Assembly: GCA_019232795.1 (NCBI GenBank)
Contig: JAFANH010000071.1
Location: 1-64,000 of the forward strand
DNA length: 64,000 bases
Reading direction: 5' to 3'
Origin: Burkholderiaceae bacterium
GTDB lineage: Bacteria; Pseudomonadota; Gammaproteobacteria; Burkholderiales; Burkholderiaceae_D
Made by a program: the position numbers and the translations under genes. Of the stretch, positions 9,983 to 21,844 are shown in pieces. How positions within the stretch are numbered: the stretch's first letter is position 1; each line of letters opens with the position of its first letter. The notes under the pieces were generated by a model. The model did not search any database and was not told the origin of the DNA. It was given only the letters and a program-made list of their open reading frames with translations.

Positions 9983-11674
9983 ATGCATAAACCCAATCTC
10001 CGTGAAAGTTTCTGGCGCTCGCTGCTGACTTTCGACATCACGCGCGTGCTGATCGCCGTGGTGCTGCTGGTTTATCTGATTGCCAATAAAAAGAGCGGCG
10101 TCAGCGATGCCGAGCAATGGGTCAACTGGCAGATTTGCGTGGTCTACCTGGCGTTGGCCATGTTGTTTGCCGTCTTCGCCGTCTATTATCGTGGCCGCTT
10201 TGTACTGCAGAGCCTGTTGCAGATCACGGTTGACGTGCTGGCGATTTCGCTACTGTACGTCGCCGCCGGCGGTACCCGCAGCGGCCTGGCGATCCTGTAT
10301 TTGTTTCCGCTGGCAGGCGGCGCGGTCCTGCTGCCCGAGGTATGGGCTCTGTTTTTCGCCGCCGCGGTCACTTTGTTCCTGCTCGGCGAAAGCGGTTACC
10401 GGATTTTCGTTTTGCTGGCCGATGGCTCGTTTTCTCAGGCCGGACTATACGGCGCAGCTTTTTTTTCCTCGGTTTTCCTGGTTAACCGGCTGGCGGCGCG
10501 TTTGATCAACCAGGAAGACCTGGCGCTCGAGCGCGGCAAGGCCTTGCAGATGCAAGAGTCCATCAACCGCATGGTGATTGCCGACATGGGCGACGGCATT
10601 CTGGTGGTCGGGCGCGACGGCACCGTGCAAATCGGCAACCCTGCAGCCGAACGCATGCTCGGCATGACCATTCCGGCGGCCGGACCGCATTTTCGCTTGG
10701 CCGATGTGCCCGTCCTGGTACCGATTGCCGATGCCTTTTTTGAATGGATGAGCAAAACCGCCGAGCAGAGATTGACCGAGGCAGCCGCTTTTATCGTGAT
10801 CAGGCCGGGCGAGGATGCCAGCCTGGGTGCCCCGAGCGGCGCCGGTGTCCTGTGGGGCTGGCGGCGCGAACCTTCGGTGCACCTGAAACTGCGCTTTGCC
10901 GCCGTGCCCGCCATGGACATGGAGGGCGAGCGCACCGTTATTTTCCTGCAGGACGTCACCGAAATAGAAAACCGGGCACAGCAGCTGAAGCTGGCCTCGA
11001 TGGGGCGCCTGACGGCCAGCATCGCCCACGAAGTGCGCAATCCGCTGTCGGCCATTTCCTACGCGGCTTCGCTGCTGTCCGAGGATATGGCCGATGCAAC
11101 GCCGCGCCGTTTGCTGAATATAATTGGCGACAACGTCACGCGGCTGAACCGCATGATCGAGGACATCCTGAAGCTGTCGCGGCGCGCCCAGTCGCACAAT
11201 GAGCCGCTGGCGCTGACGAGCTTTTTTCAGGATATCCAGGCCGAACTGCAGGAAACACGCGTGTTGCCCGACAGCGTGCTGCGCCTGTCCGAAATGGATG
11301 GCCAGTGCGTGCGCTTCGATCCTTTGCACCTGCGAGAAGTCATGATGAATCTGTTGACCAATGCGGTACGCTACGCCAGCGGCCGGCCGGGCAGTATCCG
11401 CGTCCATCCCGTCTTTGACGGCACTCGCCTGGAGCTGCACGTTCAAGACGATGGGCCGGCGATTTCGCCGGAAGTGCGCGCCCACTTGTTCGAACCGTTC
11501 TATACGACATCGAGCAAGGGAACCGGCCTGGGCCTGTACGTGGCGCGTGAGCTATGCCTGAATAACGGCGCCATGCTCGATTACGAGTACCGGCTGGAGC
11601 GGTCGGAAGAGGGGGTGGACGAGGCGCGCGGACGCTTTGTTATTACCTTTGCGGCCGCAGAGCAATCCACATGA
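9983..11674 (+). CDS. pilS: Sensor histidine kinase PilS
   Basis: The membrane kinase of the PilSR system, which controls pilin transcription with sigma-54. About six transmembrane helices cover residues 15-175. A PAS-like region follows (MVIADMGDGILVVGRDG), then the H box SIAHEVRNPLSAI with the phosphorylated His at 349, the N box NLLTNAVRYA and the G box GTGLGLYVA. A TTG at 9971 is an alternative start; the ATG at 9983 is preferred. The stop codon touches an inverted-repeat element that separates it from pilR. Confidence 0.93.
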   Translation: MHKPNLRESFWRSLLTFDITRVLIAVVLLVYLIANKKSGVSDAEQWVNWQICVVYLALAMLFAVFAVYYRGRFVLQSLLQITVDVLAISLLYVAAGGTRSGLAILYLFPLAGGAVLLPEVWALFFAAAVTLFLLGESGYRIFVLLADGSFSQAGLYGAAFFSSVFLVNRLAARLINQEDLALERGKALQMQESINRMVIADMGDGILVVGRDGTVQIGNPAAERMLGMTIPAAGPHFRLADVPVLVPIADAFFEWMSKTAEQRLTEAAAFIVIRPGEDASLGAPSGAGVLWGWRREPSVHLKLRFAAVPAMDMEGERTVIFLQDVTEIENRAQQLKLASMGRLTASIAHEVRNPLSAISYAASLLSEDMADATPRRLLNIIGDNVTRLNRMIEDILKLSRRAQSHNEPLALTSFFQDIQAELQETRVLPDSVLRLSEMDGQCVRFDPLHLREVMMNLLTNAVRYASGRPGSIRVHPVFDGTRLELHVQDDGPAISPEVRAHLFEPFYTTSSKGTGLGLYVARELCLNNGAMLDYEYRLERSEEGVDEARGRFVITFAAAEQST

Positions 11675-11867
11675 AGCTGCTGAAAAATTACCGTGGCGTT
11701 TTTGCAGGGGGCGGCCATCCGCATCCTTGCCGCCCTTGCAGGGCGCATTTGCGCTTGCAAGCGCAAATCGTTCCGCAGGCACGCGGCACGCCGCGCGAAT
11801 TCCCTGCTACACCAGTTCGTACTGTCTGCGTCGCTGCGCCTAGCCACACTAATTTTTCAACAGCTTC
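11673..11867. mobile_element. MITE-like inverted-repeat element between pilS and pilR
   Basis: Terminal inverted repeats of about 24 bp bound this 195-bp segment. The left arm (11673-11696) and the reverse complement of the right arm (11844-11867) share GAAGCTG, then TGAAAAATTA, then GTGG, with three mismatches. The inside codes for nothing convincing and holds a perfect 22-bp palindrome (11747-11768). Such small non-autonomous repeats are common between genes in betaproteobacteria. No transposase or clear target duplication is visible, so mobility is inference. Confidence 0.6.
11747..11768. repeat. Perfect 22-bp palindrome inside the element
   Basis: ATTTGCGCTTG is followed directly by its exact reverse complement CAAGCGCAAAT, so RNA or single-stranded DNA would form a cruciform or hairpin at the centre of the element. 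Confidence 0.85.
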
Positions 11868-18903: not shown

Positions 18904-19108
18904 TCGCGGCTCAGGCATTTTGCCGAGCTGACCAATTGGCTGAAGCGCTGCATTGGTGAGGGAATGCAGCAGTTCAGCTGGTGCCGAATTCATTAGCGCA
19001 AACAGAAACATGCTTGTGCCGATGAATAATCCGCCTGGAACATCGCGATGAACCAGGAGGGTTTCAACTTAGTAGCTTGATTTTTTCCATCACGTGAAGG
19101 AGAAACAA

Positions 19109-19765
19109 ATGGCAACAACTGCAAAGAAACCGGCGGCTAAGAAGCCTGCCGCCAAGAAACCTGCGGCCAAGAAGCCTGCTGCAGCCAAGAAGCCCGCCGC
19201 TGCAAAAAAGCCGGCTGCCAAGAAGGCCGTCGCTAAAAAGCCGGTAGCCAAGAAGGCCGTCGCTGCCAAGAAGCCGGCAGCCAAGAAGGCCGTCGCTAAA
19301 AAGCCGGTAGCCAAGAAGGCAGTCGCCGCCAAGAAGCCGGTAGCGAAGAAAGCCGTCGCTAAAAAGCCGGTAGCCAAGAAGGCCGTCGCCAAAAAGCCGG
19401 TAGCGAAGAAAGCCGTCGCTAAAAAGCCGGTAGCCAAGAAAGCTGCAGCTGCCAAGAAGCCGGCAGCCAAGAAAGCCGTTGCTAAAAAGCCGGCTGCCAA
19501 GAAGGCTGTAGCGAAGAAGCCGGCTGCCAAGAAGGCTGCTGCCAAGAAGCCGGCTGCCAAAAAGCCTGCTGCTAAAAAGCCGGCTGCCAAGAAGGCCGCT
19601 GCCAAGCCTGCTGCGAAAGCCAAGCCTGCGGCCAAAAAGCCTGCTGCTAAAAAGGCTGCGCCGAAGAAAGCTGCCGCCAAGCCTGCCGCTGCTGCAGCCC
19701 CGGCTGTGAAGACGGTCTTGAATCCGGTCGCTGCCTGGCCGTTCCCGACCGGCACACGCCCGTAA
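19109..19765 (+). CDS. Histone H1-like Ala/Lys/Pro-rich DNA-binding protein
   Basis: A highly basic 218-residue protein made almost wholly of [14 protein letters not shown]-type units, resembling the C-terminal tail of eukaryotic H1 and bacterial H1-like proteins such as Bordetella BpH1 and chlamydial Hc2. It is expected to bind DNA non-specifically in the nucleoid. The last 20 residues break the pattern ([16 protein letters not shown]), a tail I recognise from betaproteobacterial members. GAAGGAG precedes the ATG at 19109. Long internal DNA repeats make its length likely to vary. It is a second gene of this style, 12 kb from the SWIB protein. Confidence 0.9.
19216..19620 (+). repeat. Direct repeats inside the histone-like gene
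   Basis: The 20-mer GTCGCTAAAAAGCCGGTAGC occurs exactly at 19229, 19292, 19355 and 19415, a period of 63, 63 and 60 bases, embedded in shorter AAGCCGGCTGCCAAG-type repeats. This allows slippage and recombination in steps of 20 or 21 codons. Confidence 0.9.
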
Positions 19766-20428: not shown

Positions 20429-20734
20429 GTGGACAAGCCATGCTGTAGCCAATTACCGGGCGGCGTGCGGCTGGCAGTGCAGATTACGCCGAATGCGCGG
20501 AAGAACGAAGTGCTCGGTGTGCATGACGGCGCCTTGAAAATCAAACTGCAGGCGCAGCCTATCGAAGGCAAGGCCAACGAAGCCTTGCTGCGCTTTATCG
20601 CCGACCGGCTGGGCCTGCCGCTGCGGGCAATCGCCATCGTGCGTGGACATCAGAGCCGCAGCAAGCTGCTCGAAATATCGAGCGCCGGGTTGACGGTAGA
20701 GGCGGTAAGCTCCGCCCTGCTAAGGCTACACTGA
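20429..20734 (+). CDS. YggU/DUF167 family protein
   Basis: A small cytoplasmic protein of 101 residues with the family core GVRLAVQITPNARKNEV, LKIKLQAQPIEGKANEAL and RGHQSRSKLLEI. Function is unknown. The start is GTG at 20429. The stop and the last three residues (RLH) come from the terminal repeat of the adjacent inverted-repeat element, so the original C-terminus may have been altered by its insertion. Confidence 0.88.
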   Translation: MDKPCCSQLPGGVRLAVQITPNARKNEVLGVHDGALKIKLQAQPIEGKANEALLRFIADRLGLPLRAIAIVRGHQSRSKLLEISSAGLTVEAVSSALLRLH

Positions 20735-20911
20735 GCAAGTCCCATGCGCCCGGATGGCCGTCCCACGCATCGCCGTTTCGGGCGGCTTGCGGCGTTGCAA
20801 ATCCTCGCCATAGCACCCACTATGGCTGCGGTTAGCCGGGGCGGCCATCCGCTTGCAATCCATCCCGAACCGACGCGCGCAGCATCATGGGACTTACTCA
20901 GCGTAGCCTTA
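20721..20911. mobile_element. MITE-like inverted-repeat element between yggU and the sugar kinase
   Basis: A 191-bp segment bounded by 26-bp inverted repeats with 24 matches: 20721-20746 starts TAAGGCTACACTGAG, and the complement of 20886-20911 starts TAAGGCTACGCTGAG. Inside lies a second inverted pair (CGGATGGCCGTCCC at 20751-20764, GGGGCGGCCATCCG at 20838-20851) and a central hairpin GCCATAG/CTATGGC at 20807-20826. No gene is inside. The ends carry stop codons used by both flanking genes. The RNA form could act as a bidirectional terminator. Confidence 0.65.
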
Positions 20912-21844
20912 ACTAAAGGCGTAACCGAAAGCCTGTTGGAAGCGTTGCGCGATCTCGTCACGTGAGGGGCGGTGATTTTGCGCGCCCTGGTGCTCGATCT
21001 TGAGGGCGCCCATCAGGCTCGCCAGACGCCCGGTGGTCGGCCAATCGAGCCCCTTGCTCAAGCCATACAGGATGCCGGCGCGGAAGGCATCGCCGCAACC
21101 GGTCGGGTCGACGGCATGGGCAACCGGCACCGCCGGGATGTCGTGCCGTTGGCCGCCGGCGTAGATTTCGGAGCCGGCTTCGCCGCGCGTGACGATCAGG
21201 GCCTGCACTTGGGCGGCAATCTGTTCCAGCGTCAGGCCGGTGCGCTCGGTCAGCAGTTCAGCTTCGTAATCATTGACAGCGACATAGCTGGCCAGGTCGA
21301 TGAAGTGTTTCAATTCCGCGCCGTCGAACATAGGCAGGCCCTGGCCCGGATCGAAGATGAAAGGAATGCTCAAGTCGGCGCAATCGCGCGCATGCTGCAA
21401 CATGCCGTCGCGGCCGTCGGGAGCGACGATGGCGAACTTGACCGGGCCGGCGTCGGCCACCAGGTTGCGATGCGAGGCCGTCATCGCCCCCGGATGAAAA
21501 GCCGTAATCTGATTGCCGTCCGCGTCGGTCGTGATGAAAGCTTGTGCCGTGAACGCATCCGCGACGGTCTTGATGCAACGCTCGCTGATACCCAAGGTGC
21601 GCAGGCGGTCGAGATAGGGGGGGCTGTCTTGTCCAACCGTGGCCATGATGAGCGGATCGCCGCCGAGCAAATGCAGGTTGTAGGCGATGTTGCCGGCGCA
21701 GCCGCCGTATTCGCGCCGCATGCCCGGCACCAGGAAGGCGACATTGATCTTGTGCAAGTGATCGGCCAGCAGGGCCTCGGAGAAGCGCCCTCCGAAGGAC
21801 ATGATGGTGTCGTAGGCGATCGAGCCGCAAATGAGAGAGGTCAT
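20909..21844 (-). CDS. PfkB family carbohydrate/nucleoside kinase
   Basis: A cytoplasmic kinase of the ribokinase superfamily, 311 residues. It has the N-terminal glycine motif YGGCAGNIAYNL and the C-terminal signature DPTGCGDAFRAGILYG with the catalytic Asp. The pattern resembles bacterial adenosine kinase-like members, but the substrate cannot be fixed from sequence. The stop codon TAA lies at the outer edge of the adjacent inverted-repeat element. It reads leftward, 27 bases after the zinc-ribbon protein gene. Confidence 0.88.
   Translation of the reverse strand: MTSLICGSIAYDTIMSFGGRFSEALLADHLHKINVAFLVPGMRREYGGCAGNIAYNLHLLGGDPLIMATVGQDSPPYLDRLRTLGISERCIKTVADAFTAQAFITTDADGNQITAFHPGAMTASHRNLVADAGPVKFAIVAPDGRDGMLQHARDCADLSIPFIFDPGQGLPMFDGAELKHFIDLASYVAVNDYEAELLTERTGLTLEQIAAQVQALIVTRGEAGSEIYAGGQRHDIPAVPVAHAVDPTGCGDAFRAGILYGLSKGLDWPTTGRLASLMGALKIEHQGAQNHRPSRDEIAQRFQQAFGYAFS

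Follow-up and report, generated by a model that had tools for sequence, protein, structure and literature searches.

A predicted miniature element with IS5-family ends at the stop codon of a kinase gene, and a hairpin core common to elements with other ends

Nonautonomous miniature elements (MITEs) are commonly presented as relics of a single insertion sequence. Short, noncoding, multicopy elements with terminal repeats are also known from Neisseria as Correia elements, and the folded attC sites of integrons carry R boxes (RYYYAAC and GTTRRRY). Correia elements are touched on in PMC4133298, which presents TIMEs as Tn3-derived miniature elements that make mosaic transposons, and REP sequences are given as 20 to 40 bp in PMC3733652. 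RU-1, a 127-bp enterobacterial repeat that is likewise short, noncoding, multicopy, and bounded by terminal repeats, has copies that form the C termini of genes (PMC2759123). Within the IS5 group, the target duplication is Py-T-A-Pu (YTAR), most often CTAG (PMC5493358; also PMC11677980). The YTAR duplication of IS5 and the C termini formed by RU-1 are thus already published (PMC5493358, PMC2759123). Among the literature matches listed, titles and abstract openings described neither the structured core reported below nor the landing of a MITE on stop codons (subscription papers and ISfinder lay outside the scope of this search). By word search of the text at hand, "stop codon" and "Burkholder" were absent from the review PMC10969869, and when oligomers of the core and its insert were searched as literature text, an 11-mer alone matched, in papers that were unrelated by title.

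Here, we examined a 191-bp, noncoding inverted-repeat element in a 64,000-nucleotide stretch of a Burkholderiaceae genome (the window). The features at this junction are as follows.

20429..20734, plus strand: yggU (DUF167), with its final three codons and TGA stop inside the element
20720..20723, plus strand: left 4-bp YTAR target copy, CTAA (the YTAR duplication was established on other copies)
20721..20746, plus strand: left terminal inverted repeat (TAAGGCTACACTGAGCAAGTCCCATG); the TAA in TAAGGCTACACTGAGCAAGTCCCATG is part of the target site
20787..20843, plus strand: structured core, a match of 45.8 bits to our covariance model R1, degraded relative to most copies
20838..20851, plus strand: GGGGCGGCCATCCG insert within the 3' portion of the core, present also in elements with other terminal repeats
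20886..20911, plus strand: right terminal inverted repeat
20909..20912, plus strand: right 4-bp target copy, TTAA, one base off the left copy; its minus strand is the kinase stop
20909..21844, minus strand: PfkB-family kinase, with its stop codon inside the target site

The element (20721 to 20911) resembles the IS5 group, as typified by Escherichia coli IS5, in having a partner insertion sequence of about 1.2 kb with a single DDE transposase and in its 4-bp YTAR duplication, but the window element holds the ends only and no transposase. In the amidase case of RU-1 (PMC2759123), insertion removed the normal stop and made the protein longer, whereas here the target itself holds the stop. Correia elements and RU-1 also differ from the window element in that its type of body is common to elements with different ends. 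TIMEs are likewise miniature elements, but they have Tn3-type ends rather than one body with many kinds of ends. REP sequences are palindromic and extragenic too, whereas the present elements are mostly 160 to 280 bp and have target duplications. The bulged hairpin of the core is reminiscent of integron attC sites, but an R-box pair was not evident by eye in the consensus.

The two 26-nt arms are complementary at 24 of 26 positions (92%), and the pair heads the list from a window scan for inverted repeats (arms of 18 nt or longer, no more than 300 nt apart). Rechecking the sequence confirmed the inverted repeat described in an earlier note on this DNA, as well as its placement of the end of yggU and the kinase stop within the arms: the TGA at 20732 to 20734 lies in the left arm, and the minus-strand TAA at 20911 to 20909 forms the outer edge of the right arm. 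The same note had treated the element as mobile, and its membership of a multicopy mobile family was borne out. Allowing up to three mismatches, the terminal inverted repeat (TIR) pattern matched the host genome 19 times, 9 on the forward and 10 on the reverse strand, and had no match in the reversed control, which is more than chance would give. We count 11 copies of the TIR family there, 8 of them two-ended and 3 one-ended. Across 294 genomes of the host's bacterial family, at up to two mismatches, 22 had TIR matches, the host included. Some of these matches pair up about 1,187 bp apart, as full-length insertion sequences in related genomes. Two of these (L169, 1,187 bp; L185, 1,186 bp) each encode a 323-amino-acid transposase, too large for a 191-bp element to encode, with DDE_Tnp_1 and DUF772 domains (PF01609/PF05598) and matches to the NCBIfam IS5 model NF033581 at E values of 3e-99 and 1.3e-104, respectively. 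Because its ends match those of insertion sequences of about 1,187 bp with such a transposase, sequence comparison identifies the window element as a MITE with IS5-family ends. No transposase of the L169/L185 type was matched in the host genome (87% complete) at an E value of 1e-10, so that present mobility of the element is no more than possible. At a further locus (L170:2016-3724), a 1,709-bp element with IS5 ends carries one entire transposase frame, on the minus strand, and on the plus strand an N-terminal fragment of a near-identical transposase, which suggests one insertion sequence nested within another.

The YTAR duplication was seen for MITE copies and full-length insertion sequences alike. 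Among 31 two-ended copies, 18 had an identical 4-bp YTAR at both sides (12 TTAA, 5 TTAG, and 1 CTAA) and 13 had no identical pair; the window copy, with CTAA and TTAA, differs at one base. The YTAR consensus equals its reverse complement and holds TAA or TAG on both strands, in one frame each. Because of this self-complementarity, TAA or TAG stands at each end of the element, reading inward. Insertion into a self-complementary target with a stop codon would be harmless for genes of either strand, and such a target may offer a simple reason for some mobile elements piling up at gene ends. In the mechanism that we propose, an IS5-family transposase acting in trans would move the MITE into YTAR. 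Where that target is a gene's own stop (NNY TAR), all codons and the stop would stay intact after insertion, so that insertions at stops would survive and those within genes would be purged.

At the yggU-kinase junction, the transposase would have struck the kinase stop (AG-T-TAR). On the opposite strand, YggU reads the same site in a different frame; it would have lost a 17-residue predicted tail that overlapped the kinase and gained a new end, RLH-stop, within the terminal repeat. The yggU (PF02594) frame now ends CTG CTA AGG CTA CAC TGA, with AGG, CTA, CAC, and TGA in the left arm. When we joined the flanks over one target copy, the kinase was unchanged at 311 amino acids (ending FGYAFS-stop), while YggU, now 101 amino acids, became 115 amino acids and overlapped the kinase. 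The kinase stop is best read as the target site, because the joined flanks keep the kinase unchanged. Named relatives of the kinase (top identity, 80%) suggest that the host belongs to the Oxalobacteraceae. From 80 fetched loci, 31 kinase relatives were examined, and 27 of these end at 310 or 311 amino acids; by eye, the terminal repeats were absent from up to 140 bases 3' of the stop in all 31. A congener (G001, locus L211) has no element at the junction, and there YggU overlaps the kinase, extending 12 residues beyond the common ALF and into it. The congener kinase ends FGYSL with the stop G-TAG, and the site, being preceded by G, is not YTAR. From these sequences, the element appears to have swapped the tail of YggU and parted two overlapping genes, with the kinase stop retained. 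The earlier note had proposed that the element supplies stops to both genes and had pointed to relatives without the element as the deciding comparison. On that comparison, the YggU half stands, since three codons and the TGA come from the element, and the kinase half falls: the kinase stop lies in the target site and persists in the joined flanks, and the lengths of the relatives further speak against the element as its source, which we rejected.

Copies often lie at gene ends, in keeping with the earlier note's placing of the element in or at the ends of both genes. For 7 of the 11 copies in the host genome, an ORF of 100 amino acids or longer terminates in frame at the edge TAA, and at one of them (L006), between convergent genes, the edge TAA serves as the stop on both sides. 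All eight genes at these stop-bearing ends have Pfam domains (amidase, pullulanase C-terminal domain, RdgC, GlnE, FAD-NAD(P)-binding, ABC transporter, lipid A acyltransferase, and PfkB kinase), and in each, the best domain match ends no more than two positions from the end of the profile, a comparison limited to the domain. Six of the eight ends are YTAR, the exceptions being GTAA (L004) and ATAA (L135). All eight ends stop on the target TAR; the repeat has a second frame with a stop, and YggU alone reads it. Scoring copies by an edge TAA or TAG and controls by YTAR sites, we found 20 of 51 copies of the TIR family on a stop, whereas of the YTAR sites in flanking sequence, 40 of 276 were (P = 1e-4); against YTAR sites in the window (24 of 102), the same 20 of 51 gave a borderline P value of 0.058, and the 7 of 11 copies in the host genome alone gave a P value of 0.009. 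At L169, the autonomous insertion sequence likewise occupies the stop codon of a gene, which encodes a P-type ATPase. Over all TIRs, 41 of 125 copies were on a stop, and 45 of 155 YTAR-edged ends were on a stop versus 140 of 1,243 control sites (P = 2e-8). For other TIRs, the corresponding numbers were 38 of 140 versus 140 of 1,243 (P = 2e-6). These counts over all and over other TIRs cover the 125 of 144 cores with a repeat score of at least 12 and accept a YTAR no more than 6 bp from where the repeat ends, which can give one end more than one chance; the family-A label follows a strict pattern, by which L177 is classed as other. This enrichment fits a YTAR target and the loss of gene-breaking insertions, their contributions taken together. 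The earlier note had suggested that an element with stops and a hairpin in its ends would land harmlessly. The outcome was right, but the YTAR target is the better reason.

The middle of the element matches elements with different ends, which define a core of about 57 nt. In a 24-sequence alignment, near-fixed GGCGTTGCAAATCCTCGC and TGCGGTTTGCGCCTTGC arms flank a variable hairpin tip. Covariance model R1 found the core in 75 of 250 Burkholderiales genomes (E ≤ 1e-3), with at least 22 copies in the richest genome. At E ≤ 1e-4, the model matched 38 genomes among 274 from the class (2 in the same order) and 20 among 249 from the phylum (10 outside the class, these being core matches alone). These E values are rough, and since no more than 20 to 22 candidates were scored per genome, true copy numbers may be higher. 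An inverted repeat of score 12 or more enclosed 125 of the 144 cores that we examined, versus 0 of 40 random placements (maximum score, 11). Some of the 144, at five mismatches (e.g., L013, L015, L235, and L296), look false and have low repeat scores. Seven loci with no core arm at up to five mismatches were skipped (L011, L017, L240, L248, L249, L319, and L320), some of them true but diverged. Two candidates (L024 and L039) had no core and no enclosing repeat and were excluded from the core alignments. YTAR bordered 152 of the 240 ends. The terminal repeats fell into 20 classes at looser cuts, and the host genome has 5 at a stricter cut; we give the number as about a dozen or more, rather than 20 or 28, because several small clusters (those of L178, L271, L283, L287, L303, and L324) look like misplaced ends.

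Identical hairpin tips occurred with different TIR classes (e.g., in genomes G361 and G364 and in G456 and G434). Mean core identity was 0.80 for different TIRs in the same genome, 0.81 for the same TIR in different genomes, 0.77 when both differed, and 0.93 when both were the same; the near equality by genome and by TIR class favors neither as what the core follows. At an E value of 0.01, the core was absent from the loci with full insertion sequences or transposases (L169, L170, L185, L329, L333, and L337) and from 126- to 128-bp MITEs with the same ends (L183, L197, L198, L203, and L204); two loci (L189 and L190) had weak core matches. In 9 of 100 loci examined, a second core faces the other way at a distance of about 106 bp, in elements of mostly about 270 bp. 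These double-core elements (L236, L252, L254, L256, L258, L259, L260, L265, and L269) have a GC-rich linker between the cores.

Among 107 distinct cores, 92.3% of cells pair, and 16 of 19 pairs in the whole structure change on both sides, including all 14 of helices 2 and 3. There were 314 covarying cells, compared with 85 for shuffled and no more than 57 for slid controls, in an alignment that was fitted to the structure and whose related copies are not independent; a 24-sequence MAFFT alignment gave 34 versus 9.7. Over the 107 cores, a GTT bulge is conserved at 98 to 99%, and an internal loop has T at 94% and C at 85% with a facing T at 96%. Stem cells were Watson-Crick in 1,843 of 2,028 cases and G-T in 29. 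G-T versus A-C cells numbered 29 versus 42 overall and 2 versus 15 in the distal stem, a difference whose sign depends on the strand and which comes from nonindependent copies. The core of the window element itself fits the model poorly, at 45.8 bits, and carries the GGGGCGGCCATCCG insert; folded as DNA with its surroundings, it was no better than shuffles (z = −0.5). As RNA, the element was more stable than dinucleotide shuffles on the two strands (z = −6.9 and −8.3).

We consider it highly probable that the window element is a MITE moved by an IS5-type transposase into a YTAR target bearing a stop, that the kinase stop was spared and the YggU tail swapped, and that the core is the hairpin body of many MITEs. 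The model of the earlier note, in which the element inserted in or near both genes, its ends gave both their new stops and C termini, and its folded RNA halts transcription from both sides, draws on the element-derived end of YggU and on the very stable RNA hairpin of both strands. We regard it as very improbable, given that the kinase has the length of 27 of the 31 relatives examined, that the eight other ends in the host genome stop on the target TAR while YggU alone uses the other repeat frame, and that no intrinsic terminator (a GC-rich stem followed by a T run) was found in the element. Two such sites between 20500 and 21100 fall outside it, and with the T run missing, an intrinsic (Rho-independent) terminator was rejected as its identity. 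An effect of the element on transcripts is possible because its RNA folds strongly. Alternatively, the element may be retained as a bidirectional terminator or 3'-end stabilizer, with convergent and 3' positions selected; many copies do adjoin gene 3' ends within 5 bp, and one-sided landings give a weak hint of core orientation bias, 25 along the landed gene versus 12 against (P = 0.047). This alternative seems unlikely to us. Counting copies with 500 bp on either side and genes called by an ORF heuristic, 117 core-bearing copies with called neighbors (3 undetermined copies lie outside this number) included 27 convergent, 66 tandem, and 24 divergent sites, versus 25, 103, and 31, respectively, among 159 other gene pairs of the same loci. 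Convergent gaps are thus without a clear excess (P = 0.16) and divergent gaps without a deficit (P = 0.88), so that we rejected a clear preference for convergent sites and, with it, set aside the earlier note's suggestions of such a preference and of transcription ending from both sides. In addition, the YTAR target accounts for the abutting positions, and in the core sense, G-T cells are not commoner than A-C cells, with a sign that flips for RNA of the opposite strand.

Within the reading of the element as a stop-landing MITE, the origin of the core can be viewed in two ways. The core may be an old MITE body that is not under selection and whose ends changed by drift or exchange, with the covariation produced by template-switch correction of quasi-palindromes, a repair process that can also produce covariation. 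The stem changes, mostly from Watson-Crick to Watson-Crick, agree with this view, as do the mean identities by genome and TIR, and we hold it to be plausible but short of probable. Against it, the unpaired bulge and loop bases are conserved over 107 cores from many TIR classes, and because of this conservation, pairing correction is insufficient as a cause. We infer that the core may be a hairpin recognized by something other than the transposase, and a body that has repeatedly gained new transposase ends and been kept for a function apart from end recognition. Tentatively, then, and at somewhat less than even likelihood, the core of about 57 nt could be a selected mobile body, a bulged hairpin (as DNA or RNA) bound by a putative factor of the host or element, which, in Burkholderiales and relatives, acquired ends of about a dozen or more kinds, most of them targeting YTAR, and spread without damage through its stop-bearing target. 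The miniature elements of this widespread group share one structured body and vary in their ends, which makes selection on a MITE body, and its binder, testable questions.

The 14-mer GGGGCGGCCATCCG, at up to one mismatch, is a small interspersed repeat. Besides 20838 to 20851 of the window, it was found at L003, L007:648, L010, L014, L015, L016 (twice), L017, L018, L025, L030, L039, and L137. In elements whose ends differ, it occupies one and the same position in the core, and it also occurs away from core elements. A second inverted-repeat element in the window (11673 to 11867) has 25-nt arms (GAAGCTGCTGAAAAATTACCGTGGC), different from those of the first, and carries GGGGCGGCCATCCG. Its middle looks core-like by eye, with no R1 match at an E value of 0.01. 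The one-ended copy at L137 is adjoined by sequence similar to this second element.

No Rfam family matched at gathering score anywhere in the window, and for the element, the top weak match was mir-278 (E = 0.064; 18.2 bits against a cutoff of 55). In seven other loci, the single gathering match (L176:2668-2730) lies outside the element, so a known Rfam RNA was rejected as the identity of the window element and of those in the seven loci. This match, about 540 bp from a MITE copy, is to RF02278, a toxic small RNA of Betaproteobacteria, and scores 52.3 bits (cutoff, 50). Upstream of the yggT-yggU pair, the window also has a 223-amino-acid ORF rich in Lys/Ala repeats (19094 to 19765), which we take to be histone H1-like.
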